DNA of 52,810 nucleotides from Maricaulis salignorans. GTDB lineage: Bacteria > Pseudomonadota > Alphaproteobacteria > Caulobacterales > Aquidulcibacteraceae. The stretch covers positions 1-52,810 of the forward strand of contig CAMDDL010000015.1 of the NCBI GenBank assembly GCA_945891505.1, read 5' to 3'. The translations under genes and the position numbers were made by a program. The notes beneath the pieces are model-generated. The model searched no databases and was not told where the DNA came from. It saw only the letters and a program-made list of their open reading frames with translations. Numbering within the stretch: the stretch's first letter is position 1; the number at the start of each line of letters is the position of its first letter. Positions 7,312-29,287 of the stretch are shown one piece after another.

Positions 7312-7935
7312 ATGATGCAAGATACCAAATCAGCGTTGGTTCGAGCCGCCGAGCGCTTGTTCGCCGAAAAAGGGCTTGGCGGCGTCTCAGTGAAAGAAAT
7401 CACCCAGGCTGCCGGTGCCCGTAACGAGAGTGCATTGCACTATCACTTCGGAGGCCTCGATGCCCTAATCAAGGAAGTCTTTGCGCATCGATACCGCGAT
7501 ATTGAACGGGCGCGCTTCGCTCGCCTCGCCGAACTTAGCGGCGACACAAAAAAGATGACCATTGAGTCGGTATTGGAAGCGTCCATCGCGCCGTTCATGG
7601 CAGCTTGTCTGCAAGAAGATGGCCGTCTCTATGCAAGATTTTGCGTGCAATTGGCGACGGATCCGAGGTTCGACCTAGCTGACCTGATTGGCGATATTGG
7701 AATGCCCAGTATGAACATGATGCGGCGTTTTCTGGTGGAAAGCATTCGCGACATTCCGTCCAGTATTCTGGCTACGCGGCTTAGACGGGCTTTCCTAATC
7801 TCACTGATGCTAGCTGCCGACTATGCCAAGCAGATCGAGCGTGGGACCGCTCCGTCAATCGAGGACGCCACACGCGAGGCAGCGGTTACGTTGGCGGGCT
7901 TCTTGTGCGCGCAGGAATCCAAACCTAATCAATAG
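7312..7935 (+). CDS. TetR family transcriptional regulator
   Basis: 207-aa regulator. The N-terminal helix-turn-helix (about 8-52: AAERLFAEKGLGGVSVKEIT, then NESALHYHFGG) is a textbook TetR DNA-binding domain; the C-terminal domain (60-200) is the variable ligand-binding part. Two adjacent ATGs (7312, 7315) are both possible starts and neither has a strong ribosome site. It is divergent from the EF-hand gene and near the sulfatase/monooxygenase operon, which it may also regulate. The ligand is unknown but is likely a hydrophobic compound handled by the neighbouring catabolic genes. Confidence 0.92.
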   Translation: MMQDTKSALVRAAERLFAEKGLGGVSVKEITQAAGARNESALHYHFGGLDALIKEVFAHRYRDIERARFARLAELSGDTKKMTIESVLEASIAPFMAACLQEDGRLYARFCVQLATDPRFDLADLIGDIGMPSMNMMRRFLVESIRDIPSSILATRLRRAFLISLMLAADYAKQIERGTAPSIEDATREAAVTLAGFLCAQESKPNQ

Positions 7936-7991: not shown

Positions 7992-8396
7992 CTAGCGTTT
8001 TTTACGCGTTTTTTTAGGTAACTGAACTATCGGCTTTTTTGGCTTTGCGACCGCAGTCCATGGCATTTCCTTTTTTGCCTTCGCAAGAACCCCCTCAATC
8101 GTCGACACAGGCCTCTTCTCTTCAAGAAAATGTGACGCTAACGCTAAGTTGGTTCTGATCCGCGCGTCTTTCATCGAGTTGCAAATTGCGTGGTCGGCGG
8201 CCTGCCAAGTTAAAGATCCAGAACTACTTTCAGGATATTTTCGCATCGCTTGCTGACCAGATCCATCAGATTTCTTCCCACAATCAGCTGCTTCGGCTGA
8301 AAAATGGCGGCGAGTGGCTCGCCGTATATCCTTGATAACACGCTCAGCTGGAGCCTTGCCCTTAGCCTTGTCATGAATTGAGTGATTTGGTCTCAT
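7992..8396 (-). pseudogene. chimeric ORF: IS3-type OrfA N-terminus joined to unknown sequence
   Basis: 134-aa ORF. Residues 12-35 (KGKAPAERVIKD, then IRRATRRHFSAE) match the start of IS3-family OrfA transposases, where EEKIRIVL would normally follow. Here the homology stops abruptly and runs into unrelated sequence ending in a Lys/Arg-rich tail (PKKTRKKR). I do not recognise the C-terminal 95 residues. The start codon lies inside one arm of a perfect 18-bp inverted repeat (8380-8434). Upstream on the minus strand GAGGAATG could serve as ribosome site. It is best read as a truncated transposase fused to other DNA; a small functional basic protein is possible but less likely. Confidence 0.55.
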
Positions 8397-8434: not shown

Positions 8435-8776
8435 CTTAATTCACAACCCTAATTTTGTGCCATAGGTGCTGGCGGGGAACAGATGCCGCGCCTTCCGGTC
8501 CAAAATCAATGTTCATGATATGTCTGAGTTAGCGCCGTCCGTGTTACAAACCTTGAAGTGCCCCCATATACTGCGAAGTCTTCTGCATTGACGCCAAAAA
8601 GGGCGTTGACCTTGCAGTTGCGAGCAACGAAATCGCGCTAAACATATCCATTGTTCCATTGGCTCCCCGCAACAGGTCAGACTATAAAATATTTTGTATT
8701 TTATGCTCCTCTTATCCACTATGTAATGCTATTATGACGAAAGGTCGTCCTGTGATTAAAGATGGGAGGAGAGAAC
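8435..8776. other. intergenic region upstream of the Fe-S gene pair
   Basis: About 340 bp. Short ORFs on both strands have no recognisable content. The right half is AT-rich and carries the near-palindrome at 8683-8698. This is the likely promoter region for the 8777-10747 genes. Confidence 0.5.
8683..8698. promoter_or_regulatory. candidate Crp/Fnr-type site 1 (TATAAA-ATAT-TTTGTA)
   Basis: A near-perfect 16-bp palindrome within an 18-nt string identical to one at 16874-16891. It lies 78 nt upstream of the first start codon (8777) of the Fe-S/YgfZ-like unit. Half-site length and spacing fit Crp/Fnr geometry, and two such regulators are encoded in the window. Confidence 0.5.
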
Positions 8777-8929
8777 ATGGCGAAGCCAAATCTGCTATCC
8801 ATAATAGCCATGTGTTTTTCTGTGGGTTTTTCTATCACCGCTGAGGAAATCCGAGCTGAGACTGCTCAGTACTTGCCGATTTCCATAACCACTTCGATCC
8901 CTGCTGCACTGGAAGAAGCCAATGTCTGA
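8777..8929 (+). CDS. 50-aa signal-peptide-bearing small ORF overlapping the Fe-S gene
   Basis: Small ORF with a strong ribosome site (GGGAGGAGAGAAC then ATG). It encodes a hydrophobic N-terminal segment (LLSIIAMCFSVGFSITA) with a plausible cleavage point before EEIRAE, then QYLPISITTSIPAALEEANV. Its TGA overlaps the ATG of the following 4Fe-4S gene by 8 nt, so it could couple translation of that gene. It might also be the surviving N-terminus of a longer secreted protein: the mature part weakly recalls the start of secreted GlcG/HbpS-type proteins. I do not recognise it with confidence. It explains why the following gene has only a modest ribosome site. Confidence 0.55.
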   Translation: MAKPNLLSIIAMCFSVGFSITAEEIRAETAQYLPISITTSIPAALEEANV

Positions 8930-9833
8930 CGGGTCGGCACCTCGCTCGCATCGCGATGATACTCTTCCCAATACTCCACAGGCAAATGACCAAGCTGCAC
9001 TTGGGCTTTCGTCACGCGGCTGCAGCTCTGGCGCGCTTTCTGCTACTTCTTCGGAGGGATCTCCCTTCAACCATGCTTGGCTCAATCGGGTCAAAGCCGA
9101 GCTTGGCGTGGATTTGATGGGTGTCCTAGCGGTTGAGCCGAACTCGCATCCAGATTTCATCCAAGGCGTAAAAACGTTCCTACCAAAGGCGCGCGCGGCG
9201 ATCATCCTCATGAATGAGCTGGCGTCGGAAACGATGAATCTGGTCATGCATCCTGCAAAATATGCCGGAAAGCTGAAGACCGGCGCATTACTTGCTCCCC
9301 ACGTCGACGAGGTACATTCAGAGCTCGACCTCGCCAATATGCAACTTGCAAAGCTGCTTAAACGTGAGGGCTATCGCAGCATCGCTCTGCCTCGACGCCT
9401 TCCCATGCGGGCTGCCGATATGAAGTTCCCTTTGTCATTTTGTCATATCGCGGAAGCTGCCGGAATGGGCACCGTCGGCACGCACACGCTGATCATTACA
9501 CCTGAATTTGGCACACGGGTGCGACTGGCCTGCCTGCTAACCGAAGCCCCGATACCGACAACCAAACGCCATGATCCAGTCGACGATTGCACCCACTGTC
9601 TCGATTGCGTCAAAGTCTGCCCGGTTGGAGCGATCAGTTCGCCTGGGCCCGGCCTACGCTATGAAGTCGATGCTGCACGGTGCAAATTTTATCGCGACTA
9701 TGTCGATAATTGCGGTCTTTGTCAGAAAGCGTGCAGTTTCGCCACGCGTCATTCCGAAACCGTCGGGCCGCCGCTGACGGCGCGCGCCGATTCTTTTGGC
9801 CTGCAAGAATATCTCAACAAAGCGGCGGATTAA
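8922..9833 (+). CDS. QueG-like double-cluster 4Fe-4S protein
   Basis: 303-aa iron-sulfur protein. After a poorly conserved, Ser/Gly-rich first 45 residues, positions 46-215 resemble the epoxyqueuosine-reductase/reductive-dehalogenase-like superfamily, including SELDLANMQLAKLLKREGYR and GMGTVGTHTLIITPEFGTRVRL. Two cluster motifs follow: C223-x2-C-x2-C-x3-C233-P and C254 ... C264-x2-C-x3-C271. Relatives use cobalamin or flavin next to these clusters for reductive chemistry. It lacks the C-terminal repeats of classical QueG and sits in a catabolic region, so tRNA modification is unlikely. The YgfZ-like gene starts 2 nt after its stop, so the two products almost certainly work together. It may reduce or demethylate a substrate (inference). 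Confidence 0.8.
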   Translation: MSDGSAPRSHRDDTLPNTPQANDQAALGLSSRGCSSGALSATSSEGSPFNHAWLNRVKAELGVDLMGVLAVEPNSHPDFIQGVKTFLPKARAAIILMNELASETMNLVMHPAKYAGKLKTGALLAPHVDEVHSELDLANMQLAKLLKREGYRSIALPRRLPMRAADMKFPLSFCHIAEAAGMGTVGTHTLIITPEFGTRVRLACLLTEAPIPTTKRHDPVDDCTHCLDCVKVCPVGAISSPGPGLRYEVDAARCKFYRDYVDNCGLCQKACSFATRHSETVGPPLTARADSFGLQEYLNKAAD

Positions 9834-9835
9834 CA

Positions 9836-10747
9836 ATGAGCGTTTCTGACGAGGACATTCAGGCAAGTGCCAAGATGGCGGGCCTGCGACCACGGTCAAT
9901 GTCTAACGACTCCGCGCACTACTTTCGTAAGCGCACTGTATTGCAAGCCTTTGGTGATTTGTCAGGTTTGGCAGAAATCGCGGCGTGTTCGCCACCTAGT
10001 AAAAGTGAGCGCGGGCGGTTCGTCCCTCTGCTCACTGAAGCGGGTTTCCTCGACGCAGACCTTTATATCGCTCCCTATGAAAACGGGGCGCTGATCGATG
10101 TGCATACGGACCTCGCAGACGCGGTTGCAGATCGATTGGTTGCATTAGCGGGCGTGGTTGAGATCGATCGAACGGCTGGTGAGCGATGGCGTGTCTTTGG
10201 CGAACTGCCTGATCAAAAGAGTGCCGACACTACCTTCGAAACAATTCGTTTTGCAGACTCGAGACGACGCGAGCTTGGAGCGCGCGTTTTTCGCGATGCC
10301 ACCGAACCGGAAGGCATGGACTGGCGCCATGCACGCAAATGGGATGGCCATGCGCTGCGGCTTGGGCTTTTGCCGGACCACCGCTGCATAATTGGTAAGG
10401 GCATAAAGCCAGAGGAAGTCGGCTATCACCGCCTTCTCGGTGAAGCGGAACGTCCGCTACCGAAACAATTATCGCGGCGGGCACTGCCGGTGCGCGTAGA
10501 CACCTATGATACTGTTCGCAGTCATTTGACAGGTTCGCCCTTAACAGCCGCAGACGTGGAAATTGGCATTATGCTTGACCATGAAGGCGTTTGCGGAGTG
10601 GCGCTGGTATCAATCGACCCATGGCGTGAAGCGATTTCTGAAGGATGCAGGATTTTCTGTGCTGGTCTCCCTGTTCTCATTTCCTGGCCAACTTGGCTTT
10701 CTTCTGAAAGTGAAGGCCGCGTCGGGCCTGCGTCAAATCTGATCTAA
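9836..10747 (+). CDS. YgfZ/CAF17/GcvT-like folate-binding-fold protein
   Basis: 303-aa protein; ATG 9836 follows the Fe-S gene's TAA by 2 nt. The order of features matches the YgfZ/CAF17 branch of the GcvT fold: a GRFVPLLTEAGFLDADLYIA core, a FADSRRRELGARVF segment, a WDGHALRLGL helix and a C-terminal barrel (LPVRV ... EIGIMLDHEG ... GVALVSID). The family's signature K-G-C-Y-x-G-Q-E is absent; the equivalent stretch reads IGKGIKPEEVGYHR, so the usual cysteine is missing. It is therefore unlikely to be the housekeeping Fe-S repair factor. A folate-linked one-carbon or demethylation role with the neighbouring Fe-S protein is possible but unproven. Confidence 0.65.
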   Translation: MSVSDEDIQASAKMAGLRPRSMSNDSAHYFRKRTVLQAFGDLSGLAEIAACSPPSKSERGRFVPLLTEAGFLDADLYIAPYENGALIDVHTDLADAVADRLVALAGVVEIDRTAGERWRVFGELPDQKSADTTFETIRFADSRRRELGARVFRDATEPEGMDWRHARKWDGHALRLGLLPDHRCIIGKGIKPEEVGYHRLLGEAERPLPKQLSRRALPVRVDTYDTVRSHLTGSPLTAADVEIGIMLDHEGVCGVALVSIDPWREAISEGCRIFCAGLPVLISWPTWLSSESEGRVGPASNLI

Positions 10748-10796
10748 GCATGGCTAGTCGGCAAGGGGTCAGCCGCCGCGCTGCGCGGCACACATT

Positions 10797-11720
10797 ATGA
10801 TTGCCATCTTAGCCGCGATCTTTCCCATTGTCGCGATCCTGTTGCTTGGTAAAGCCGTTGGAAAAATGGGCTTGGTGTCAGACGAAGGATGGCTTGGGCT
10901 GGAGAGTATCACTTATTATGTACTGTTCCCAGCATTGATAATCAGCAAGCTTGCTATAGCGGATTTTGACGGTCTCGACTGGCGCATGCCGATCGTTTTG
11001 ATTGCAGCGCAAGTTCTTATGGCAGGTGCCAGCATCTGGTTGGGTAAGTTCTTTAGCCAATCGGGCGAACGAATTGGCGTGTATGTGCAATCCGGTGTGC
11101 GGTGGAACACCTTCATCGCCATCGCGCTCGCTCAAGATCTAATTGGTGAAGACGGTGTCATTCTGATTGCGGTTGCCGCTGCCGCCATGGTGCCGACATC
11201 CAATCTCCTGTCCACTATTGCGCTGAGCCACTATTCAAGCGGGCAGACGAGCGCCAGCAATTTGATTCGACAGATTATGATCAACCCTCTGATCATTGCC
11301 TCCGTTATCGGCCTCGCAATAAACCTTTTGCAGATCAGTCCGACCTACAGTATACTGAATTTTATGGATATTCTGGCGGGCGGTGCCGTTGCGACGGGCC
11401 TGCTTGCGTCAGGCGCCTATGTGCAATTGCGCAATGCAAGCACCTCCGTAGCAGAGCTATTGGGATGGTCGATGTTCCGGTTACTCGGTTTACCGTTAAC
11501 TGCTGGCGTGATCGCATTCACGTTCGATGTTTCGCCCGAAATGTTTCTCGTCGTCTTGATCGCAACAGCCGTGCCGACCGCGTCAAATGGCGCGATCCTT
11601 GCCCGAAAGCTTGGCGGTGATGCGATGCTCGCTGCCAATTTGATTGCAGTTCAAACCATTTTGGCGCTGGTTAGCTTCACCGGCATATTATGGGTCGCAG
11701 CGGCGTTTGGACTGACTTAG
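10797..11720 (+). CDS. AEC family (auxin efflux carrier-type) transporter
   Basis: 307-aa inner-membrane protein with about ten hydrophobic segments in two halves, the arrangement of the auxin-efflux-carrier family. Family landmarks include the N-terminal IFPIVAILLLGKAVGKMGLV, VRWNTFIAIALAQDLIG and the C-terminal AVPTASNGAILARKLGGDAMLAA. Such carriers export or import organic anions. It lies 49 nt after the YgfZ-like gene and ends in a strong hairpin, so it probably closes the same transcription unit. The likely cargo is a carboxylated intermediate of the local pathway (inference). The start at ATG 10797 has no strong ribosome site. Confidence 0.88.
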   Translation: MIAILAAIFPIVAILLLGKAVGKMGLVSDEGWLGLESITYYVLFPALIISKLAIADFDGLDWRMPIVLIAAQVLMAGASIWLGKFFSQSGERIGVYVQSGVRWNTFIAIALAQDLIGEDGVILIAVAAAAMVPTSNLLSTIALSHYSSGQTSASNLIRQIMINPLIIASVIGLAINLLQISPTYSILNFMDILAGGAVATGLLASGAYVQLRNASTSVAELLGWSMFRLLGLPLTAGVIAFTFDVSPEMFLVVLIATAVPTASNGAILARKLGGDAMLAANLIAVQTILALVSFTGILWVAAAFGLT

Positions 11721-11727
11721 AGCGCGT

Positions 11728-11747
11728 TTCGACCCTCTGGGGTCGAA
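11728..11747. terminator. hairpin after the AEC transporter
   Basis: TTCGACCC (11728-11735) and GGGTCGAA (11740-11747) form a perfect 8-bp stem with a 4-nt loop, 8 nt beyond the stop codon. There is no clear T-run. It lies between convergent genes and probably ends the plus-strand unit. Confidence 0.55.
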
Positions 11748-11880
11748 GTTGCGTGGCAACCTATTGATAGAGCAGCAAGATTTCATGTGCCCAGGATTCA
11801 CCTTGGTCGGGAGCCGCTCTAGGCAACACATCCTGGGGCAGTTCTTTCCAGAGGGCGGTCCATATCACATTTGCCGTTCA

Positions 11881-13026
11881 CTAAGCCAATGCCGCGGTCG
11901 CTTTTTCCAGCGTAGTTGCATATTTTTCAAGCTTCGCGCGGTCGATTTCAATGCCCAGGCCCGGTCCCTTGGGTAGGATCGCGTCACCGTCCTCTATACG
12001 CATCGGGATACAAATATCGTCCTCAAGCTTGTCCGGCCCGATAAACTCCCCAGCAGGCAGAATGGCCGAGCAGGAACAGGCCAGTTGCAGCTCCGCCGTG
12101 GCAAGCAGGCTGGTGTTAAATCCATTGCCCACCGTCACCTCGATGCCTGCCGCCTGACATAAATCCGCGATGCGACGCGATGGCCCAAGGCCGCCGCATT
12201 TGCTGACTTTCAGCTTGATGATGTCAGCGGCTCGATGTTCGATGACGGCGAGTGCGTCATGCATCGTGTGCACGCTCTCATCTGCCATGAGCGGAATACC
12301 GATCTGCTGGCGAATTTCTGCCATGCCCTTCAAATCATGCGCTTGTACGGGCTGTTCGAGACTCTCAATATTGTATTTCTCAATCGCGCGACTTAACCGC
12401 ACTGCTAACGGGACGTTGTACACGCCATTTCCGTCAAGGCGAATTTTGATATCGGGGCCAATGGCTTCTCGAACCTCGCGAACTCGGGCGACATCGGTTT
12501 CGAGATCATGCACCGAATCAATTTTCAACTTCACGGTTTTGAAGCCGCGCTCTTTGAATTTCATCGCTTTAGCGGCCATGACCTCTGGCGCTTCTGTCCC
12601 GATCCCGCCCGACATCGGGAAGCGATCCCGAAAAGCTCCGCCCATCATGGCGTGCAGGGGCTGGCCGATTGTGCGCGCTGCTGCATCGCGAACGGCAATT
12701 TCAATTGCACTTTTTGGATACCAATTTCCGAGCTGCCACATTTTCTGCATTCCGCGCTCGATCTTCTCAATGTCGAAAACGCTGACCCCTTTCAGACGCG
12801 GGCCAAAAACGGAATCTATCAACCACAGCATGCCGGCAGGCGTATCCGCCCCGTACCACCCTGGAGTGAGGAAACATTCTCCCCAGCCATCGATGCCGTC
12901 TTCGGTTTCCACCCGAACAATGATGGATATCGCGTGGCTGGCACCCCGCTCCATGGCGCCCATTTGATAAGGCGACCCTGAAGGAATGCGCACGAGCGTC
13001 GTCTCAATTGTTCGGATAGCTGACAT
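11881..13026 (-). CDS. enolase-superfamily enzyme, muconate-lactonizing/dipeptide-epimerase-like
   Basis: 381-aa enzyme of the mandelate racemase/muconate lactonizing family. The N-terminal capping domain (about 1-130) is followed by a TIM-like barrel. The KxK acid/base pair is K166-L-K168. Metal ligands are D198 (RLDGN), E224 (ESLEQP) and D249 (MADES), and the opposite-face base is K273 in KLKVSKCGG. This is the MLE subgroup pattern, which covers cycloisomerases, epimerases and N-acylamino acid racemases. It is the last gene of a minus-strand operon headed by a TonB receptor and MFS transporter, so it probably acts on the imported compound or a derivative. The exact reaction cannot be assigned. 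Confidence 0.88.
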   Translation of the reverse strand: MSAIRTIETTLVRIPSGSPYQMGAMERGASHAISIIVRVETEDGIDGWGECFLTPGWYGADTPAGMLWLIDSVFGPRLKGVSVFDIEKIERGMQKMWQLGNWYPKSAIEIAVRDAAARTIGQPLHAMMGGAFRDRFPMSGGIGTEAPEVMAAKAMKFKERGFKTVKLKIDSVHDLETDVARVREVREAIGPDIKIRLDGNGVYNVPLAVRLSRAIEKYNIESLEQPVQAHDLKGMAEIRQQIGIPLMADESVHTMHDALAVIEHRAADIIKLKVSKCGGLGPSRRIADLCQAAGIEVTVGNGFNTSLLATAELQLACSCSAILPAGEFIGPDKLEDDICIPMRIEDGDAILPKGPGLGIEIDRAKLEKYATTLEKATAALA

Positions 13027-13067
13027 TTGTTTTGGGCTCCCTCATAGAGTTGTTACGCATCGGATGC

Positions 13068-14381
13068 TCAGGGCTTGCTCTTTTCATGCAACGCCAGCAT
13101 TGCGCGGCCTGCGAGCCAATAATGCGTAGCTGACCAGAACGAGAACAAGGTGATACAAGAAAGTCCAATGGCCAGACTGCGCGCCCCTGTGGTCGGTGCC
13201 AGTAAATCGCTAATGATGCCGACAAATAGCGGGCCAAGACTGACACCGATAAGGTTTATCGCCAGCATTTTCAGGGCAGCAACCATTGAGCGCATTTCTG
13301 TCGGCGCATAGGTCTGGAGTGCCGCTTGGCTGGCGCCGAGATAGAATGTGAAAACCAGCATGGGCAACATCAGAAAAGCCAAAGCTATGGGCAGTGACGT
13401 CGATAGATAGCCGGTGATGAGCAAAGGTGCTGCTGCCGCCTGAGTTAAGGCGATCATTTTGATACCAAGATCATCGCGACGCCGATTGAGCATATCGGTC
13501 AGGCGTCCGCCGGTTAGCGTCCCAATTGCACCGATCACGCCAAAAAAGAGGGCCATGACCAAACCGACCTTGCCTTGGGGCAAATCATGCACACGGCCGA
13601 AATAGGACGGCAACCATTGCAGGACGGAATACATGACCATCCCGGAAAGGGTGAATCCCATCAACAGCTGCCGCAGTACCGGGGTGGTGAGCATCGTCTT
13701 GGTGGCTTCTCGCACAGTCGCTGGGGGATTAGACTGATCGACGCCTTGCCCATCAGAACCACCGCGTTGGGGCTCTTTGAACAAGACTAAGAACATAAGT
13801 CCAAGTAGGATGCCTGGAAGACCGACAGCAAAAAAGGCCGACCTCCAACCATATACTTGACTGACATAGCCTGCCGCGAGAAATCCGATGACCATCCCCA
13901 AATTTCCTCCGGTGACGACAACTGACATCGCGAAAGAACGTTCGTGGCGGGGATAATAGTCGGCAATGATTGACTGGCTGGCCGGGTTGACGCCAGCTTC
14001 GCCCACGGCAACAAGAATCCGGCACAGCGCCAGCGTCAAGAATCCAGCCGCCAGTCCGGATAGGGCTGTCATCACGGAGAACAGAATGAGGCTTAAAGCA
14101 ATCAGCGGACGTCGATCGTTTCGGTCCGCATATCGGCCCAGCGGAATGCCCAGGACGGCATAGAATACACCGAATGTAAGCCCGCCTAATAACCCGAGCT
14201 GCGTGTCGGATAGATTGAATTCGGCCTTTATGGGTTCAAAAAGCACCGAAAGGATAATGCGATCCACAGTGGATAGCATGAATGCCGTAGTAAGCAGGGC
14301 AAGTGCGACTAATCTATGTCGGGCATTGGGGGGACGATTAACGTCATTACCTGCCGTTTGCGTTTGCATCTTCTCCGTCAT
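13068..14381 (-). CDS. MFS transporter, organic-acid or aromatic uptake type
   Basis: 437-aa major facilitator protein with 12 predicted membrane helices and a short soluble loop near the middle. Conserved MFS loop motifs are visible: GIPLGRYADRNDRRPLIA between helices 2 and 3 and GGRLTDMLNRRRDD in the second half. The start is ATG 14381 because GGAG lies 9 nt upstream; a TTG 15 nt further out is less likely. It sits 77 nt downstream of the TonB receptor gene and 41 nt upstream of the enolase-superfamily gene, forming an outer-membrane receptor plus inner-membrane carrier pair. The family often carries carboxylates; the cargo is not identifiable. Confidence 0.92.
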   Translation of the reverse strand: MTEKMQTQTAGNDVNRPPNARHRLVALALLTTAFMLSTVDRIILSVLFEPIKAEFNLSDTQLGLLGGLTFGVFYAVLGIPLGRYADRNDRRPLIALSLILFSVMTALSGLAAGFLTLALCRILVAVGEAGVNPASQSIIADYYPRHERSFAMSVVVTGGNLGMVIGFLAAGYVSQVYGWRSAFFAVGLPGILLGLMFLVLFKEPQRGGSDGQGVDQSNPPATVREATKTMLTTPVLRQLLMGFTLSGMVMYSVLQWLPSYFGRVHDLPQGKVGLVMALFFGVIGAIGTLTGGRLTDMLNRRRDDLGIKMIALTQAAAAPLLITGYLSTSLPIALAFLMLPMLVFTFYLGASQAALQTYAPTEMRSMVAALKMLAINLIGVSLGPLFVGIISDLLAPTTGARSLAIGLSCITLFSFWSATHYWLAGRAMLALHEKSKP

Positions 14382-14458
14382 ATTCCGTTGCTCCAAGCTG
14401 CCGGCATCCTGAGCGCACGATCATTATTTAGCGGTTCGTGCGCCCTCCTCATCGAAAC

Positions 14459-16792
14459 TTAGAAGCGGAATGTTCCCGATGCACCATATGTTCGAGGCTG
14501 CGCCCGGTTACAGCGTACCGCTGTGCTGCCAGGGAACACACCGTTGCGCAGCCCGAAGCTATTATCGAGCACCTGATAGAATTGCGTGTTGCAATAGCCT
14601 AAGTCAGCAAGGTTGTTGCCAAAAATGGTCAGGCTCCAACGATCTTCACGTCCAGAGATTTGCAGCCGCGCGCCAAAGAGCCCATAGCCATCTTGGATAG
14701 TTTGTTTATTATTATCAGTTACTTGGCCAATGTTTGCATCGGAAACAAAAGAGACATTACCATTAAGCGACCAACCTAGGCCAGAGTTGCCAATGTCTCC
14801 CCACCACGTCGCGCCAACATTGCCTGTATATTCCGGCGCAAAGTGGTTTGTACCGCCCTTTAGATTCTGCACACCGCCAATGCCGGGCAGGCCAGAACCG
14901 CCGGGGTAGAGGGTAAACTGCGAGTCCAGATAGGCGAGCGAAGCATTGACCACGAAATTTCGTGATGGCGCCATCCGCGCGTCGAACTCAAATCCCTGAT
15001 GACGCAAATTGCCTGCATTGCGCACAACGAAGCTGAGGCCGTCGAAACTGCGATCCTGAAAGCCGCCAATGTCCATCAGGTAAAAGGTCAGGTTGGCTTG
15101 CAGAGCGTTTTCAAGCCAGCTTGTCTTGGCACCCAGTTCGTAGCTATCGACCGTTTCCCTGTCGAACACCCGCGTCTGGTTGAGGGCCGTTGCGCCTGCA
15201 CCCGAATTGAAGCCGCCAGACTTGAATCCTGTCGAATAGCTGGCGAACATCAGCACATCGTCATTGGGTTTATAGCTTAGAGCCGCACGCCAAGTAAAAC
15301 GATCATCTTCCAGGGCCAGCGCCACATTTTCCGTTGCCCGCAAAGAAGCCGCGAAGGGGCTAGCCCGCAGCTGAATGTAGGTCCCATCCTTCTTCTCCGT
15401 CGTCCAGCGCCCGCCAAGTGTAAAGGTCAAGGGGTCAGCGATTTTGAAATTGGCTTGAGCATAAACCGCAAAGCTCTCTACAGTCTGCGAAAAATCCTGA
15501 TCGGTAGCATTGACGCCGCCACCCGCAGCCAGCGAAGTGTTGCACGCCGTGCGAGTGGCGCCAGCCGGCACCAGCACATTGCAGAATTGGCTGCCCAGCT
15601 GGAGCCGCTCATCGATCGTGTAATCTTCGCTGAAATAATAGAGGCCAGCGACGAAATCGAGCGCTCCGCCCAAAAGTTCATCTTTGGGGGAGATCAATTG
15701 CAATTCGTGATTTTGACTATCTGATTCAAAGCCTCCTAATCGGGAAGACAAGGGAATAGTTGTGAAAAGTGTGTCACCGTCGAGCTGCGCATTCTCCCAG
15801 CGACGATAGCTGTTGATCAACCGAAGCGAGTAGCTGCCGATGTCAAGTGTTGCATCGCTCGACACCCCCCAATTCTCATCGGTAAAGTCAGCGGTTATCA
15901 CCTGATTGACCTCGCTGTCGAACAACACTGTGTCCATCGCCGACCCAGCACGTGCGGTCTGCAGACCGAGAAAGTTGGTTAGCTGCGCCGTTGAAACACT
16001 ATCCGTACGCAATTCAGTAGGTGAAAAGCCGTCGCCTTCGCTTTTTGCATAGTCGCCGCGCACCAACCAAGTCACATTGCCCAAATCAGCCTTGATCGAA
16101 ACGCGGCCAGCATAATCATCCGCTCCCCCATAAGTCTTGCCATCGAGCCTGTTGCGCCAGAAGCCCTTGCTCGTGGAGCTGAGGCCAGCAATGCGCATAG
16201 CAACCTTGTCACCCAGCGGCAGATTGACATGCCCCCTCACCGCATAGCGATCACCATTGCCTGCTTCAGCGCTGATCTGGCCGGAGAATTCATTTTCCGG
16301 TTGTGCGCTGCGAAGCGAAATGGCCCCCACGCTTGCGTTGCGACCAAATAAGGTTCCTTGTGGCCCGCGCAAGACTTCGACGCCATCGATGTCGAGAAAG
16401 TTTCCGATTATCGAACCTGAGCGGGGCACATAAACACCGTCAACGAATGACGCAACGCTCGGTTCAATCGCTGCGTTACCCGTTGAACCGACACCGCGGA
16501 TCGCCAAACGGATCCCAGCCGTCTGCACACCACGGTTGACTGTGAAATTTGTTGCAATACGAGGCAGATCCTGAACCGTCAGGACATTTGCCTCTGCCAG
16601 CTTAAGAGCGTTGAACGCAGCGACCGAAATCGGCACATCCTGGACATTTTCGCTCCGCTTTTGAGCCGTGACAATAATGATGTTATCGTCGATTTCATCG
16701 GTTGGGCTATTGTTCTGCGCGGCCACTCCAGTGAATGGAATGCTCGCAAGTGCGATTGCGGCAACACCCGATAATAGTGTTAGTTTCCCCAT
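14459..16792 (-). CDS. TonB-dependent receptor
   Basis: Outer-membrane gated barrel of 777 aa. Residues 1-25 form a signal peptide ending in GVAAQN. The plug begins at IIIVTAQKRSENVQDVPISV, the FecA/catabolite-receptor style seen often in sphingomonads. RGVGSTGNAAIEPSVASFVDGVYVPRSG and LRGPQGTLFGRNASVGAISL are standard plug motifs. The C-terminus ends in the beta-signal GTFRF, so it is full length. It heads a minus-strand operon with the MFS and enolase-superfamily genes. A Crp/Fnr-like palindrome lies 81 nt upstream. It likely imports a hydrophobic or aromatic catabolic substrate rather than a siderophore (inference). Confidence 0.95.
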   Translation of the reverse strand: MGKLTLLSGVAAIALASIPFTGVAAQNNSPTDEIDDNIIIVTAQKRSENVQDVPISVAAFNALKLAEANVLTVQDLPRIATNFTVNRGVQTAGIRLAIRGVGSTGNAAIEPSVASFVDGVYVPRSGSIIGNFLDIDGVEVLRGPQGTLFGRNASVGAISLRSAQPENEFSGQISAEAGNGDRYAVRGHVNLPLGDKVAMRIAGLSSTSKGFWRNRLDGKTYGGADDYAGRVSIKADLGNVTWLVRGDYAKSEGDGFSPTELRTDSVSTAQLTNFLGLQTARAGSAMDTVLFDSEVNQVITADFTDENWGVSSDATLDIGSYSLRLINSYRRWENAQLDGDTLFTTIPLSSRLGGFESDSQNHELQLISPKDELLGGALDFVAGLYYFSEDYTIDERLQLGSQFCNVLVPAGATRTACNTSLAAGGGVNATDQDFSQTVESFAVYAQANFKIADPLTFTLGGRWTTEKKDGTYIQLRASPFAASLRATENVALALEDDRFTWRAALSYKPNDDVLMFASYSTGFKSGGFNSGAGATALNQTRVFDRETVDSYELGAKTSWLENALQANLTFYLMDIGGFQDRSFDGLSFVVRNAGNLRHQGFEFDARMAPSRNFVVNASLAYLDSQFTLYPGGSGLPGIGGVQNLKGGTNHFAPEYTGNVGATWWGDIGNSGLGWSLNGNVSFVSDANIGQVTDNNKQTIQDGYGLFGARLQISGREDRWSLTIFGNNLADLGYCNTQFYQVLDNSFGLRNGVFPGSTAVRCNRAQPRTYGASGTFRF

Positions 16793-16873
16793 GATGTTCT
16801 CTCCCGTTCCCAGTAGCTATGCCGTTTGTCGGCATTTTGTCACAATCTATATGGGAGCAAACAGAGCAAAGAA

Positions 16874-16889
16874 TATAAAATATTTTGTA
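16874..16889. promoter_or_regulatory. candidate Crp/Fnr-type site 2 (TATAAA-ATAT-TTTGTA)
   Basis: The 18-nt string at 16874-16891 is identical to 8683-8700. It is 81 nt upstream of the TonB receptor start, almost the same distance as site 1 from its gene, and is read from the opposite strand. Confidence 0.5.
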
Positions 16890-17023
16890 TTGTTGGGAAT
16901 TTTGTGGAGCAAAGCCCCTATCGTTGGGGTGGCTTGGTTCGCGCTTGACTGACCGTTGCTTTAGATGTCACGGCTAGATACGTTGTCCAGGGACATATTC
17001 GATCAATAAAAATCTAAAGCTTG

Positions 17024-17695
17024 TTAAATAGCATTACGGCTTCGAAGCCACGCCGCCAGCTTAACCATGCTAGGGACCGTAACGCATCGATAGCCCCTTT
17101 TTACCAGACCGGCACCTTCGAGCGTTTTGAGCGCATTCGCCACCGAGACTTCAGTAACCCCTAGCAGATCGGCCAGATCGCGCTGCCTGCAGGCAACTCC
17201 ATCATCAAGCTCGCCACGTCCTGCGTGGATATGAATGATCTTGGCGAGCCTGACAACGATCTCCAACGTTCGGACGTCATCATAAAGCTCCAATAAAACA
17301 TAAAGCCTGTCCGTGTTGCAGCGCCAAAAGCCAAGAGCGAAACCGGGCTGATTGCTAAGAAGATCTTCTAGCAATGTGGCTTCGATAACAAAGACCTCAG
17401 TATCACCCATGGCATAACTGTTATGTGTGTTTGCAGCTCGCTGTAGGCCGACGTCTCCGAAATGACCGCCGACACCAAGGACGCTCACCAAATTAAATGA
17501 GCCATCCGGTCGAATTCGACCAATGCGGACCGCTCCATCAGCGACGATGCATACACGCGGTGAGGTATCGCCGCGTGTATGCATTGAATCTCCATCTTTG
17601 AACTTTCTGCGCGGTGCCCGCCGACAAACTTCCCGATAAACTTCATCAGGAAGGTAATCGCGCAAGGGTCTGAGCCGAAAATCTAAAATGTCCAT
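17024..17695 (-). CDS. Crp/Fnr-type regulator, copy 1
   Basis: 223-aa regulator: cyclic-nucleotide-binding-like barrel (about 25-110), long dimer helix (120-155) and winged helix (170-193: RQRDLADLLGVTEVSVANALKTLE). ATG 17695 is chosen over GTG 17713 because AAGGGA lies 6 nt upstream and the length then equals its paralog at 19160. It lacks the N-terminal cysteine cluster of FNR. At the recognition helix the Crp residues R180-E181-R185 are replaced by Glu, Val and Asn, so a standard TGTGA site is not expected. It probably activates or represses the nearby catabolic units through the TATAAA-N4-TTTGTA element (inference). Confidence 0.88.
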   Translation of the reverse strand: MDILDFRLRPLRDYLPDEVYREVCRRAPRRKFKDGDSMHTRGDTSPRVCIVADGAVRIGRIRPDGSFNLVSVLGVGGHFGDVGLQRAANTHNSYAMGDTEVFVIEATLLEDLLSNQPGFALGFWRCNTDRLYVLLELYDDVRTLEIVVRLAKIIHIHAGRGELDDGVACRQRDLADLLGVTEVSVANALKTLEGAGLVKRGYRCVTVPSMVKLAAWLRSRNAI

Positions 17696-17713
17696 GACGA
17701 ATCCCTTAAGCAC

Positions 17714-18039
17714 AGATGGCTCGGGGGTCTACCCAACCTAAGTCAGCGCTGGCTGGAAGGCGCATGCGGCCTCGCATAAGGTTTGGACGATCCCCAAGCC
17801 AAATTCGCGCAGGAAATCTCAAAAGCCCGCCAGTCGGTCAAGACCGGCGTGCAATCGCGCAAAAAGACCTTCGAGGATTTTCTCGAAGCAGCCGACTACA
17901 CCGTCATCGAAGGCACCAATTGTAGGACCTTCAAAACGCTGCGTTTAAACTTTCAATTCAGCCGCTCATTCATTTCCAGATGATATGGTGCAATCAGGAA
18001 ATTTCTTCCAGCTTCGCCCGATCAATGATGTTGATGCGA
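17714..18039. other. degraded DNA with a short unknown coding remnant
   Basis: Between the Crp/Fnr gene and the pseudogene. The plus-strand frame 17783-17983 reads DDPQAKFAQEISKARQ then KTFEDFLEAADYTVIEGTN, which looks like genuine helical protein sequence but has no start, no ribosome site and no partner. I do not recognise the family. It is probably another gene fragment in this scrapyard. Confidence 0.4.
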
Positions 18040-18694
18040 CCATAGGACAGGCCGACAAGCCCGACACATGGCCCGCTCAACCAGACCCGCGCTGGCACAT
18101 CCAGCTTGATCGTGCGAGTCTGATTGGCATTTTCACCGGCAACATCAATCCCAATACTCGGCGCAGCGAGGGCGGATTTTATCCTACCCGGATAATAATT
18201 ATTTCCGCACGATCGTTAATCTGTGCTTTGGCCCGGTGGCGATATTGCGCGCCAAAGCACCAACAACGCCGCGCACGCGGAGCGGAGAAAGGCTGATGGG
18301 CAATGGAGAGTTGCGCTATTGGTCCGTCTGTTCAAACCGAAGCTTTGCCTACCCCCGCGTCAATGATTGCGCCTCTGACGAGGAAGCGCCTGTCGACGAA
18401 CAGGGCTATTTCACCATAATCATTTCCAAGTCGAAAGACCGCCCGCGCAACGCCCGCCCCGAATGCGGCATGCAATGGTTGCCTGTTGCCAAGGATGGTG
18501 ACGGCGTGTTCGATAAAGATGTCGCCGTGCTGCAAATCCGCCACATGCTGGCCAAACCAGACTTCAAACAGGCCATCCAGTTCATTCCAACCGACGACAA
18601 GAATGCCGAGGTGATGGGCGAAGATGCGCCGAAGATGCGCTATGCGACGCCCAACGCGGTCGAAGGCCTGTTTCCTTGTCCTTTGGATCAATAA
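18040..18694 (+). pseudogene. frameshifted C-terminal remnant of a conserved unknown protein
   Basis: Two overlapping plus-strand frames give one protein when joined. The first holds DPRWHIQLDRASLIGIFTGN and NPNTRRSEGGFYP; near 18182-18192 the homologous frame changes and continues DNNYFRTIVNLCFGPVAILRA, then GNGELRYWSVCSNRSFAY and RPECGMQWLPVAKDGDGVFD, ending FPCPLDQ. These blocks recall a widespread uncharacterised protein family with R-Y-W-S and ECG motifs (from memory). The N-terminal half and any start are missing and at least one frameshift separates the pieces, so this is not functional. It lies between two Crp/Fnr paralogs and next to transposon debris. Confidence 0.65.
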
Positions 18695-18785
18695 GTAAAT
18701 AGCTGGCGTCGCGGGCGTAGGCATGTCTGCTTTCGGATGCGCAACCTTAAGGAGCCCAACCCGACAGAATGGCTAGGTGGGGACG

Positions 18786-18833
18786 ATGAAGGGACAGAGG
18801 ATCGGCTACATCCGCGTCAGCGCATTTGATCAG
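18786..18833 (+). pseudogene. N-terminal fragment of a serine resolvase/invertase
   Basis: The ORF starting at ATG 18786 encodes MKGQRIGYIRVSAFDQ, the start of Tn3-type serine resolvases including the catalytic-serine context (RVS). Homology ends after 16 residues at the junction with the IS481-like fragment, and the frame then stops at 18878. Only the extreme N-terminus of the gene is left. Confidence 0.75.
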
Positions 18834-19048
18834 CCCTGTTTCGCCGTGCTGCTCGTAGGCAGCTCTCCAGTGGTGTAAGCTTGCTAGACCGACACCGAAG
18901 TACCGGCATGTTCTAGCTTTATGGTCAGTCTTCACTGCATGACGCTGCATCTTGAGCTTGCATTGAATATCGCGTTCTTCCTTGATCATAGGTTCCAAGC
19001 TACTGATTGCCTATAGGCAGTTTGAAAGTTGTCCCGCGAGTCCGAACA
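18834..19048 (-). mobile_element. 5' fragment of an IS481-like insertion sequence
   Basis: On the minus strand ATG 18989 begins MIKEERDIQCKLKMQRHA, then RTCRYFGVGLASLHHWRAAYEQHG: the N-terminal helix-turn-helix of IS481-type transposases. It stops at about residue 54 where the resolvase fragment begins, so the catalytic core is lost. The string at 19030-19048, read outward as TGTTCGGACTCGCGGGACA, is a plausible terminal repeat because it begins with TGT and sits about 40 nt before the start. Only the 5' end of the element remains. Confidence 0.65.
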
Positions 19049-19159
19049 GTTCTACAGTTAACGACCATAACAACAATGATCATAAAACGGCGTTGCAGAT
19101 GCCAATAATTGCGTGCTAGCCCTAAAGGACGTGAACAGATTTCATTTCTCAAGGCTGTG

Positions 19160-19831
19160 ATGGACTTGCTTGATTTTGGTCTTAAGCCCCTGAGCGCCTA
19201 TCTGCCCGAAGCGGTCATGAGTGAGGTGCGGCGGCGAGCCCAGCGAAGAAGTTTTAAAGACAGCCAAGCCGTACATGAGCGCGGTGACAAAGGTGCGCGG
19301 CTGTGCATTATCGTTGCTGGTAAAGTGCGGTTTGGGCGATTTCAGTATGACGGATCATTCAAGCTGCTGGCCATGCTAGGGCCAGGGGCTCATTATGGCG
19401 ATGTGGCACTCCACCGAAAAGCATTCACGCAAAGTGTTTTCGCTGATGGGCGGGTCGAAATTGATGTTTTCGATGCGGAAACGCTGGAGGCAATACTAAA
19501 TGATCAACCCGAACTAGCTATAGCCCTTTGGCGGTGCAACACAGAGCGCCTAAATGCTGTTCTGGAATTGTATGATGACGGACGAACGCTGGGTGTAACC
19601 GCTCGGCTGGCCAAGGTGATCTACGTCCATACAGGGCTGGGCGAATTGCCTAACGGTGTGGCTTGCCTTCAACGAGACCTAGCCGATCTGCTGGGGGTCT
19701 CAAAAGTAGCCATTGGGAAGGCGATGCGCGATCTCGAAAGAGCGGGTCTGGTAAAATCTGGGTATCGCCAGATCATCGTGCCTAACAAGACCAAGCTAAA
19801 AGCTTGGCTTCAAAATTCCGGAGCAGCCTGA
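19160..19831 (+). CDS. Crp/Fnr-type regulator, copy 2
   Basis: 223-aa paralog of the 17024-17695 protein, with the same length and near-identical signatures: MDxLDFxLxPL at the start, WRCNTxRL, LELYDD, then VACxQRDLADLLGV and AGLVKxGYR. ATG 19160 is used; the frame is open upstream to a TTG with no support. The recognition helix reads SKVAIGKAMRDLE, so Crp Arg180 and Glu181 are replaced by Lys and Val. The divergence from copy 1 is moderate, suggesting an old duplication or separate acquisition rather than a recent copy. It precedes the acyl-CoA dehydrogenase operon on the same strand, 176 bp away, with a candidate site in between. Confidence 0.87.
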   Translation: MDLLDFGLKPLSAYLPEAVMSEVRRRAQRRSFKDSQAVHERGDKGARLCIIVAGKVRFGRFQYDGSFKLLAMLGPGAHYGDVALHRKAFTQSVFADGRVEIDVFDAETLEAILNDQPELAIALWRCNTERLNAVLELYDDGRTLGVTARLAKVIYVHTGLGELPNGVACLQRDLADLLGVSKVAIGKAMRDLERAGLVKSGYRQIIVPNKTKLKAWLQNSGAA

Positions 19832-19848
19832 ATCGCACTTGGGTCGAA

Positions 19849-19862
19849 ATGCGCCGGCGCAT
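19849..19862. terminator. loopless GC palindrome after Crp/Fnr copy 2
   Basis: ATGCGCCGGCGCAT is a perfect 14-bp palindrome 18 nt after the regulator's stop codon. It could form a short hairpin or a cruciform, or act as a protein site. It is weak as a terminator because there is no loop or T-run. Confidence 0.3.
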
Positions 19863-19900
19863 GGCCGCGTGATCTGAAATAGTTAAAACTCAACGTCAAA

Positions 19901-19916
19901 TACAAACTACTTTGTC
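19901..19916. promoter_or_regulatory. candidate Crp/Fnr-type site 3 (TACAAA-CTAC-TTTGTC)
   Basis: ACAAA-N4-TTTGT with perfect 5-bp arms, matching sites 1 and 2 in half-site, spacer length and distance (91 nt upstream of ATG 20008). It sits between Crp/Fnr copy 2 and the operon it may control. Confidence 0.48.
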
Positions 19917-20007
19917 TTCGTCGCTTCTGTCCGGTGGCATGATCGCTGGATAGTTAAGAACGCCACCGCGCCCCTAGGCAGAGGTGGCCCTACTAAGGGA
20001 GCGCGCA

Positions 20008-21213
20008 ATGAGTTCGGCAGATCTCAGCCAAGAGCAACGAGAGTTCGGCGAATACGCCCGCGGCTGGCTGGCGGAAAATGCACCGCCCCCGCCTCCTGAA
20101 CGCCTGCCAATCACGCCAATAGAGGTGATGACAGTCGGGCAGCGGGATTATCTGCAGGCTTGGCAGCGCAAGTGCTATGACGCCGGCCTCGTCGGCGCGG
20201 ACTATCCCAAGGCGTATGGAGGGCATGGACACACCGGTTTCCAACGCATTGCGAACCAAGAAATGAATCGAGCAGGCGTGCCGTTCCTTATCAATATTGT
20301 TGGGCTCAGCATGGCTGCGCCGACAATTCTGCAACATGGCACGGAAGAGCAGAGGCGCAAATTTATTCCGGGATGCCTCTCGGGTGATGAGATCTGGTGT
20401 CAGGGCTTTTCTGAGCCAGGAGCTGGCTCGGACCTCGCGAACCAACGCACATCCGCCGTGCCCGATGGAGAGGATTGGATCATAAACGGGCATAAGGTTT
20501 GGACCAGCCTTGGCCATTTTGCGACATGGATGATCCTCGTTACGCGCACCAGCAAAGACCATAAATATGATGGTCTGACTTATTTCCTCTGCCCGATCGC
20601 GGGCCAGCCGGGCGTGACAGTCCGCCCATTAGTGAAGATCACTGGGGAAACAGGCTTCAACGAAGTATTCTTTGAAGATGTCAGGATTCCAGACGCGTAT
20701 CGTCTCGATGAGGTTGGAAAGGGTTGGGCGGTGGCGATGACCACCCTTCTTGCTGAACGCGGTGCCTCTGAGGGCGCAGGAAGCGGCGGCGGCGGCGGCG
20801 AAAGCGCCATCCGGGATCTGATCGAGCTTGCGCGTGGCACGTGGCGAGATGGTGTGCTCGCCGCTGACGATCCAGTCACCCGTGACGCGATCATGCAGCG
20901 CGCAATCGTCGCGGAGGGGATGCGGCAGAACGCGAAGCGGGCTCGCGTGCCGGCGTTGTGTGATCACCCGATGCGCCTGCCCTTGCAGCAAAAGCTCACT
21001 GGCAGCGAGTTTCAACAAAACAACGCCCGGCTTGGCGTTGAAATTGCGGGTGCACATTCCACCCTCTACAAACTTGATCCGTCTGCTCCGCAGGCCGGCC
21101 ATTGGCCGCTCGCCTATCTCAATTCCTACGGCAACACGATCGCCGCTGGCACGAACGAGATCCAACGCAATATCTTAGGCGAGCGCGTGCTCGGCCTTCC
21201 GAAGACCAAATAG
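20008..21213 (+). CDS. acyl-CoA dehydrogenase, subunit 1
   Basis: 401-aa flavoenzyme oxidising an acyl-CoA to the enoyl-CoA. The start is ATG 20008 with AAGGGA 7 nt upstream, not GTG 19984. Hallmarks: WCQGFSEPGAGSDLA near the substrate pocket, INGHKVWTSLGHFATWMILVTR, and the C-terminal AAGTNEIQRNILGERVLGLPK that binds FAD at the dimer interface. The second dehydrogenase gene starts 11 nt after its stop. Adjacent unlike pairs of about 400 aa are known from steroid and other bulky acyl-CoA pathways, where they form alpha2beta2 enzymes, and that is the likely assembly here. The Gly-rich run GAGSGGGGGES near residues 250-260 is unusual. Confidence 0.93.
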   Translation: MSSADLSQEQREFGEYARGWLAENAPPPPPERLPITPIEVMTVGQRDYLQAWQRKCYDAGLVGADYPKAYGGHGHTGFQRIANQEMNRAGVPFLINIVGLSMAAPTILQHGTEEQRRKFIPGCLSGDEIWCQGFSEPGAGSDLANQRTSAVPDGEDWIINGHKVWTSLGHFATWMILVTRTSKDHKYDGLTYFLCPIAGQPGVTVRPLVKITGETGFNEVFFEDVRIPDAYRLDEVGKGWAVAMTTLLAERGASEGAGSGGGGGESAIRDLIELARGTWRDGVLAADDPVTRDAIMQRAIVAEGMRQNAKRARVPALCDHPMRLPLQQKLTGSEFQQNNARLGVEIAGAHSTLYKLDPSAPQAGHWPLAYLNSYGNTIAAGTNEIQRNILGERVLGLPKTK

Positions 21214-21224
21214 GAGTGCGGGGC

Positions 21225-22430
21225 ATGACAACCACAAAAACTGCGCCACGCGACTTCGGCTTTGGCGAGGACGAGGCGATGTTGCAGGAAATGGCGCGCA
21301 AGATGCTAGGCGAGCGCTTGCCAATGGATAAGCTGCGCACGCTTGTGGCCGCAGCCCCGGAACCAATCTACGACAGGGGCGAGCGCGCACCTTGGGATAA
21401 GGAGCTCTGGTCCGAGATTGTCGAGCTCGGCTGGACAGGACTTGCCGTCGGCGAGGCGGAGGGCGGTTCCGATGTGTCCCTGGCTGGTATCGCCGGTATC
21501 GTCGAAGAAATTGGCCGGCATGCACTGCCTTCACCATTGATTGCAACTTTGATGGCGAGTCTTGTGTTGCGGGCAGCAGGTGGCGCGGTCGCAGGTGCGC
21601 TTCTTAAACGCATCGCTGGCGGCGCGACTGCAAGCCTCGCGATCACAAATGGTCGCGGCAGCTGGGACCCTGAGCACGCGCCCCTGATTGCGAGCGGAGA
21701 AGCCGACGAGCTGGTGCTGCACGGCGGTGCGCGCTTTGTGCAAGACGCCTTTAAAGCGGACTTTCTTATTGCAAGTGCAAGGCTTGGTGACACCCTAGTT
21801 CTGTGTGCGGTTGAAACAGCAGCCGATGGCTTGAGACTTGAAACGGATCATATCCACGACCTCACTCGCGACCAAGCAAGCGTGCATTTCAACGGCGTAC
21901 GCGTGGGTGCCAGTTCGGTTGTGACCTACGAAGGCGCAGTCGTCTTGCAGGCAGTTTGGCCCTCTCTGCTGGTGCTAGTCTCGGCCGACCTCTGCGGAGC
22001 CAGCGAACGTTTGCTACAAACGACCGTGGATTATGCAAAAGAGCGCGTGCAGTTTGACCGACCGATTGGTTTCTTCCAGGCTGTGAAGCATCCGCTGGTT
22101 GACGCTATGGTCGAGATTGATCGTGCACGCTCGCTGCTTTATCACGCCGCTGCGGAAGTCGATGTAGCGTCTGGCAAGGCAGAGATTGCAGCCCGCATGG
22201 CCAAGAGTGCCGCTTCCGACGCCGCCGCCTTTATTTCGGACAGAGCCATTCAGCTGCATGGGGGGATCGGCTTCACGTGGGAATACGGGCTGCACATCTT
22301 TTTCAAGCGCAATATGCACAATCAGTCCCTGTTCGGCGACGGCGTACATCACCGCAAAAAGCTGGCGGATCTGCTCATTGGACCGATCAGCACTTCACCA
22401 AACCTCGCCCGTGACCCAGCCGCGAACTAA
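21225..22430 (+). CDS. acyl-CoA dehydrogenase, subunit 2
   Basis: 401-aa acyl-CoA dehydrogenase. ATG 21225 has AGGAG 8 nt upstream; the frame is open earlier only through the end of subunit 1. The N-terminal helical domain contains WSEIVELGWTGLAVGEAEGG, a common signature of the divergent partner subunits. The C-terminal domain has FDRPIGFFQAVKHPLVDAMVEI and IQLHGGIGFTWEYGLHIFFKR. The AGTNEIQ motif of subunit 1 is missing, as expected for partners in heteromeric enzymes where FAD sits between unlike chains. Together with its neighbours it should carry out one side-chain or ring beta-oxidation step. Confidence 0.92.
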   Translation: MTTTKTAPRDFGFGEDEAMLQEMARKMLGERLPMDKLRTLVAAAPEPIYDRGERAPWDKELWSEIVELGWTGLAVGEAEGGSDVSLAGIAGIVEEIGRHALPSPLIATLMASLVLRAAGGAVAGALLKRIAGGATASLAITNGRGSWDPEHAPLIASGEADELVLHGGARFVQDAFKADFLIASARLGDTLVLCAVETAADGLRLETDHIHDLTRDQASVHFNGVRVGASSVVTYEGAVVLQAVWPSLLVLVSADLCGASERLLQTTVDYAKERVQFDRPIGFFQAVKHPLVDAMVEIDRARSLLYHAAAEVDVASGKAEIAARMAKSAASDAAAFISDRAIQLHGGIGFTWEYGLHIFFKRNMHNQSLFGDGVHHRKKLADLLIGPISTSPNLARDPAAN

Positions 22431-22454
22431 GACCAGCCAACCAGGAGAACACCG

Positions 22455-23429: not shown

Positions 23430-23546
23430 ATGGTTTCTGGCCGCGCGCGAGCTTCCGCTCTCACCCGCAGTTTGCTCAACCCTGAACGAGTTAGCGCGCC
23501 TTTACATAAAGTAGAGGCACGCTCTGAAAGCATAGTAGGTGGCTAA

Positions 23547-24494: not shown

Positions 24495-24516
24495 ACAACA
24501 ATTAAGGAGCCAACCC

Positions 24517-25161: not shown

Positions 25162-25178
25162 CGGCAAGGAGGACTGAC

Positions 25179-25790: not shown

Positions 25791-25854
25791 AGCCTACGGC
25801 ACGAACTTCACGCTCAATGATGTGAGGGTAGAAAAAATAAGGGGGAATCAGCCA

Positions 25855-27444: not shown

Positions 27445-27478
27445 CAAATACACATAATTCCGAGCCGGGAGCATCAGC

Positions 27479-28159: not shown

Positions 28160-28211
28160 TGCGCTACTTAACGCTATTAAAATCAACAACAAGAGAAGAG
28201 GTCGACCCAAA

Positions 28212-29240: not shown

Positions 29241-29287
29241 TCCAGCCTGCGCAACCTAGACACACGGATGACAAGGAGAACTCTAAG

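Follow-up and report, generated by a model that had tools for sequence, protein, structure and literature searches.

A short palindrome as candidate operator of two local Crp/Fnr regulators in a catabolic region of Maricaulis salignorans

We analyzed a palindromic element that occurs three times in a 52,810-nucleotide stretch of Maricaulis salignorans DNA (the window: contig CAMDDL010000015.1, positions 1 to 52,810, of assembly GCA_945891505.1), together with two genes for Crp/Fnr-type regulators that are located between its second (16874) and third (19901) copies. Our best reading of the sequence is that these are two local regulators, each predicted to respond to a ligand, with slightly different operators. 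That the element is the operator of such a local Crp/Fnr-type switch, with regulators A and B acting on differing versions of it, appears probable; taken site by site, the proposal is well supported by sequence comparison for the third copy and plausible for the first two. The features at issue are the following.

8683-8700 (16-bp element 8683-8698), plus strand: site 1, TATAAAATATTTTGTATT, putative operator of a TonB-receptor-type promoter, now 5′ of a probable gene remnant and an iron-sulfur (Fe-S) protein gene (repeat, genome pattern, and matrix).
16874-16891, minus strand: site 2, the identical 18-mer as read on the plus strand, putative operator of a TonB/MFS/MR_MLE unit whose genes are on the minus strand (repeat, genome pattern, and matrix).
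19901-19916, plus strand: site 3, TACAAACTACTTTGTC, putative operator of an acyl-CoA dehydrogenase operon (conserved in four of four contigs, and matrix).
17024-17713, minus strand: Crp/Fnr regulator A (P0004), likely ATG at 17695 (PF00027, PF13545).
19109-19831, plus strand: Crp/Fnr regulator B (P0005), likely ATG at 19163 (PF00027, PF13545, orthologs).
17720-19100, no strand assigned: debris between the two modules, with open reading frames (ORFs) lacking Pfam hits and a resolvase-like frame start, MKGQRIGYIRVSAFDQ, at about 18787 (ORFs, Pfam, and inspection by eye).

String comparison across the window recovered both copies of the 18-mer, as originally observed. With up to three mismatches allowed there were four matches, namely the same two sites on each strand, whereas shuffled sequence gave 0.01 on average. 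The window contains 11 exact repeats with a length of 15 nt or above; only the 18-mer both reaches 16 nt and has copies lying far from each other. The third version had been described as perfect-armed; it is present, and its 5-bp arms (ACAAA/TTTGT) are indeed perfect, while the outermost T/C pair is not. The gaps from the 16-bp element to the first start codon are 78 nt (ATG 8777), 81 nt (16792), and 91 nt (20008), in agreement with the range of 78-91 nt first given.

The evidence for site 3 comes from other genomes. A genome scan with both regulators as queries identified three alphaproteobacterial contigs from metagenome-assembled genomes (L025, L026, and L027) that carry orthologs sharing 75-80% identity with P0005. 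Behind each of these comes the same acyl-CoA dehydrogenase operon, as far as contig ends or gene calls permit; the first acyl-CoA dehydrogenase is 90-92% identical. In all four contigs a palindrome lies between regulator and operon (TACAAACTACTTTGTC, TACAAACTTGTTTGTC, TGCAAACTTCTTTGTC, and AGCAAACTTCTTTGTC). Twelve of 16 columns are invariant within the 16-mer; the overlapping 16-column frame that does best, starting 2-3 bases later, has 14, compared with an intergenic mean of 5.4 per 16. None of six pairwise comparisons of the DNA farther 5′ of the regulator gave a match, in slices that stop 21-63 bp before the start codon and that include only 480 bp from L026 and a run of N in L025. This absence of similarity farther upstream identifies regulator, site, and operon as the conserved unit. 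Since three other bacteria have kept this tag, these regulators probably use it as their switch. In each of the three other genomes only one such regulator was found at E <= 1e-10, and in two of the three the tight pattern RCAAAHWNNTTTGTM matches the operon site alone.

A symmetric matrix built from the four operon sites only links site 3 to the 18-mers. Scored over 52,795 window positions, it ranked 19901, a training site, first, position 14837 second (14.74), and both 18-mers joint third (12.88). Among 268,852 positions of other loci, some of which overlap, 14 rows reached 12.88: eight are the operon site, two are a single place just 5′ of the L025 regulator gene, and four lie elsewhere, three of these on loci that had been retrieved for matching a motif. 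The score of the 16-mer within the 18-mer was attained by six of 200,000 letter shuffles; when shuffled half-sites were mirrored into perfect palindromes, 1,205 of 200,000 attained the corresponding score.

We also searched the host genome (3,073,632 bases, 3.07 Mb, in 88 contigs) with three patterns. TAYAAAATATTTTRTA matched the two 18-mers only (control, 0). TAYAAANNNNTTTRTM matched six places, three of them the sites, with one forward and one reverse match for its reversed control. TAYAAAMTAYTTTRTM, with at most one mismatch, matched exactly the three sites (control, 0). Since these patterns were composed from the sites themselves, the counts indicate rarity and are not independent proof. 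With only three places in the genome, a local regulon is favored over a wide one. Of the other matches considered for a wider regulon, those on contigs 11 and 76 fall within long ORFs, and one on contig 87 is about 45 bases or less from the contig end. The match on contig 47, a perfect palindrome, TACAAAAAGCTTTGTA, at position 8445 (L005 7001), is a possible further site; it is located within an ORF and about 240 bp 5′ of a gene that appears IclR-like by eye. None of the 59 other family genomes searched contained a narrower pattern, ATACAAAATATTTTRTA. G151 and G152 have the tight pattern RCAAAHWNNTTTGTM once each, G150 has it in two places, and the host genome in three; one place per genome is the operon site.

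PF00027 and PF13545, a cNMP-binding-type domain and a Crp-type helix-turn-helix, score above cut-off in both regulators, which are 55% identical to each other; among the 150 relatives listed, no other exceeds about 35% identity. Crp reads its operator, TGTGA-N6-TCACA, through Arg180, Glu181, and Arg185; written in that spacing, site 3 is TACAA-N6-TTGTC. At Crp positions 180/181/182/185, P0004 has E-V-S-N and P0005 has K-V-A-K. Alignment confirmed the reported replacement of Glu181 by Val in both proteins. The accompanying claim of an unusual recognition helix was not borne out, because Val occupies position 181 in 16 of 20 homologs (three of the 20 being the orthologs), with Thr in four and Glu in none. 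In place of Glu72 and Arg82 of the pocket for cyclic AMP (cAMP), the two regulators and the three orthologs have Asp and either Asn or Phe, respectively; 17 of 17 distant homologs retain both residues. Judged from these alignments, the apparent loss of the cyclic-nucleotide pocket, rather than Val181, is the unusual feature of the P0004/P0005 subgroup. Both the pocket residues and positions 180/181/185 (E-V-N and K-V-K) thus differ from a cAMP-responsive Crp. Both proteins extend 12 residues past the Crp C-terminus.

The gene for regulator B immediately precedes a catabolic operon of the CoA and glutathione type and has the same orientation. The regulator B dimer would bind ACAAA-N4-TTTGT in the interval that separates this gene from the operon, and would probably activate from about −41.5 in response to a pathway-related ligand other than cAMP. 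This position follows from a hexamer 29.5 bp from the site center:

19938-19943, plus strand: CATGAT, candidate −10 that would set the site 3 center at −41.5 (CATGAT in three of four contigs, CAAGAT in one).

Regulator A is arranged in the same way relative to the TonB/MFS/MR_MLE unit and would probably bind the AT-richer variant at 16874; adjacency alone suggests that the 18-mers are its targets. The 8683 copy may be this operator once more, placed before another TonB-receptor gene that is probably truncated, and expression of the Fe-S gene may now depend on it. The prediction that the three elements form the regulon of the two Crp/Fnr proteins stands in part: site 3 is kept in four of four contigs, with a geometry that fits Val181 and the C-terminal extension, and the assignment to regulator A follows from adjacency alone.

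Other members of the family have comparable arrangements. HbaR of Rhodopseudomonas palustris, to go by the title of the paper on it, belongs to the Crp/Fnr family, responds to 4-hydroxybenzoate, and controls the breakdown of this compound. CprK/RdhK of Desulfitobacterium (PMC2610375, PMC7062800) combines a Crp/Fnr fold with a non-cAMP ligand and a neighboring cluster as target, the ligand being presumed and the target predicted in our case. In the CprK-DNA structure, Val192 touches a T, and an extended C-terminus, common to CprK and FNR, is tied to a 4-bp spacer (PMC2610375). By sequence match, the CprK-dehalobox pair described there resembles ours in having 5-bp arms separated by 4 bp, a regulator extended at its C-terminus, and Val at the Crp-181 position with T at the equivalent third position of the arm (PMC2610375). 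The dehalobox itself differs (TTAAT-N4-ATTAA versus ACAAA-N4-TTTGT), as does the target, which is organohalide respiration for CprK and catabolic genes of another kind here (PMC2610375 and PMC7062800). We do not class our pair as CprK/RdhK. Unlike FNR, an Fe-S oxygen sensor, our proteins have Val in place of the Glu209-type Glu, and their box is also different from that of FNR, which has C where that of CprK has T (PMC2610375). DPR-1 and DPR-2 of Cycloclasticus are likewise two Crp/Fnr regulators within catabolic clusters, each controlling particular operons, as we predict for P0004 and P0005; they bind cyclic di-GMP (PMC8547461). A literature search for the motif and such regulators in sphingomonads found no description in titles or abstract openings.

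The units behind the three sites comprise the following.

8777-8929, plus strand: 50-residue ORF, probable truncated 5′ end of a TonB-dependent receptor gene, with signal peptide and TonB-box/VPIS region (profile of receptor N-termini, tblastn).
8922-9833, plus strand: Fe-S protein P0001, C-terminal half QueG/reductive-dehalogenase-like, start uncertain (models below cut-off).
9710-10747, plus strand: CAF17/YgfZ-like protein P0002 (Pfam, just over cut-off).
11881-13026, minus strand: mandelate racemase/muconate lactonizing enzyme (MR_MLE) family protein P0006 (family search).
13068-14396, minus strand: MFS transporter (family search).
14459-16792, minus strand: TonB-dependent receptor P0003 (family search).
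20008-30199, plus strand: catabolic operon of two acyl-CoA dehydrogenases (PimC-like and IpdE2/PimD-like), an NMO/FabK-like protein, a protein without family hit, a DsbA-like protein, a glutathione S-transferase, an AMP-binding ligase, two further glutathione S-transferases, and a short-chain dehydrogenase/reductase (family search).

The first unit had been described as Fe-S/YgfZ-like genes. Site 1 does lie upstream of them, and the first ATG opens the 50-codon ORF, which probably represents a truncated TonB-receptor gene. The ORF ends in ITAEEIRAETAQYLPISITTSIPAALEEANV, alignable to the TonB-box/VPIS region of receptors. We compared it with 12 receptors picked for a VPIS-type motif, a choice that leaves out L033, L036, and L040 and is biased toward a match. 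Its score was equaled by none of 500 shuffles for six receptors, by 2 to 9 for five, and by 464 for one, whose matching part lies outside the 150 residues compared. With tblastn, nine of these 12 receptors aligned at 8777-8929 (E 0.005 to 0.74), and control stretches reached E 0.015. A profile made without this motif criterion, from P0003 and 13 receptors selected only for their similarity to it, placed the ORF second of 1,083 window segments, after P0003, with E 0.021 (0.025 without P0003) and next best segments at 0.33 and 0.21; it is because of these modest values that we call the receptor assignment only probable. A Pfam search with the 50-mer gave no match. The units of sites 1 and 2 have in common the 11-mer GGAGAGAACAT in the ribosome-binding region, at the same spacing as before P0003, and element start to ATG measures 94 bp at site 1 versus 97 bp at site 2. 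Given receptor-like match, operator, and GGAGAGAACAT at the P0003 spacing, a truncated receptor gene is the simplest reading, and both 18-mers are then probably TonB-receptor-type promoters. In the other genomes only the regulator B block was found together, site 1 fronts a probably decayed receptor gene, and debris separates the regulators; the earlier proposal that three units form one pathway is not supported by comparison.

Several observations weigh against the proposed Crp/Fnr switch. Conservation of site 3 is based on four contigs, three of which are metagenome-assembled, and no TonB, Fe-S, or MR_MLE relative was near enough to footprint sites 1 and 2. Position 14837, within the TonB gene, outscores both 18-mers in the matrix, and the tight pattern also occurs on contigs 11 and 47 of the host genome and at one further G150 place. 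The −41.5 hexamer scores best in only two of four contigs and second in the other two, with rivals at −52.5 (L025) and −33.5 (L026). The best-scoring −10-like hexamers would place site 1 at −51.5 and site 2 at −44.5 rather than −41.5, and −51.5 would be the wrong helix face for a simple activator.

These discrepancies in promoter geometry between sites 1 and 2 and site 3 would be expected if only site 3 were an operator and the 18-mers were relics of related TonB-receptor promoters, carrying an AT-rich element for another factor or polymerase. Both 18-mers precede TonB-receptor-like starts at similar distances with the common 11-mer, and over bp 16-96, 33 of 80 positions are the same in both, a level that two of 80 shifted registers attain, so that some common descent is possible. 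Past the first 26 bp, however, the upstream regions are identical at only 25 of 70 positions; the surroundings have largely diverged, the sites are not recent copies, and the element was kept nonetheless. The 18-mers also match a matrix derived from the operon site alone. We regard the relic explanation as unlikely, and an operator for a protein of another family, with the Crp/Fnr genes mere neighbors, as very unlikely. A TetR-family protein is encoded near site 1, at 7312-7935, and 16-bp palindromes with short spacers also suit TetR-type dimers; in the three other contigs, however, the Crp/Fnr ortholog and the operon are the shared neighbors, and the slices compared farther upstream show no similarity. 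That the repeats reflect chance or a transcript hairpin of no regulatory meaning is scarcely credible. AT-rich palindromes do arise easily, and two of six folded strands reach −4.7 and −5.7 kcal/mol, but the six range inconsistently from 0 to −5.7 kcal/mol (z-scores −1.72 to 0.80), and the shuffles, genome-wide counts, and four-way conservation all oppose it.

Under the proposed local switch, the rare catabolic block would have a concrete candidate operator and regulator. The region would also be a natural and independent case in which to examine how Val181 Crp/Fnr proteins read DNA and, once the ligand is found, could be used as a substrate sensor. More speculatively, and with considerable doubt, the two duplicated pocket-less regulators might each have retained a module of regulator, operator, and operon within a mobile catabolic island, the ancestral operator having split into ACAAACT-type and ACAAAAT-type forms, each specific to one paralog. 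If so, the outcome would be a small substrate switch that works independently of cAMP and reads DNA by a new code: bases not specified by the shared Val181 would be set by residues 180 and 185.

The block is indeed rare. The regulators gave matches in four of 385 class genomes (E <= 1e-40), namely the host, G536, and two others of about 34% identity, and the dehydrogenase in two of 270 (E <= 1e-130), the host and G536; G536 and G151 share position and score and are probably one genome. Plasmids gave no P0005 match at 1e-20 and no P0007 match at 1e-100. Horizontal transfer is the likely cause of this rarity. Receptor matches at E <= 1e-150 occurred in 12 other genomes of 398, with two candidates scored per genome (best, 44% identical), and one plasmid receptor was 52.7% identical, with an AraC gene and a different layout. 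For P0001, neither the 397 other genomes of the order (E <= 1e-40) nor plasmids (1e-30) gave a match, and the same holds for P0006 in 298 other genomes (1e-80) and on plasmids (1e-70). The likeness of P0001 to the Fe-S half of QueG and reductive dehalogenases stays under the model cut-offs, well below in the case of the reductive dehalogenase model (48.9 bits; cut-off, 160.35), and its single-sequence predicted structure was uninformative (mean predicted local distance difference test score, 32.2).

As a check for autoregulation, we looked for TACAAA half-sites 5′ of the regulator and found them in two of four loci (L025 and L027), not in the window. Among the distant homologs, two of 17 loci (L010, TGCTAAATTTTTAGCA; L013, TGTTAAGTATTTAACA) have a long palindrome, TGYTAA-N4-TTARCA, just 5′ of their own Crp/Fnr start, suggestive of possible autoregulatory sites. 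In L026, a tRNA-Phe gene at 158-233 lies shortly 5′ of the regulator block and is a possible island insertion point. In the window, the probable remnant ORF abuts the Fe-S gene, whose annotated start at 8922 may be too early, and a perfect 18-bp inverted repeat (8380-8397/8417-8434) surrounds the start of an ORF at 7992-8396.

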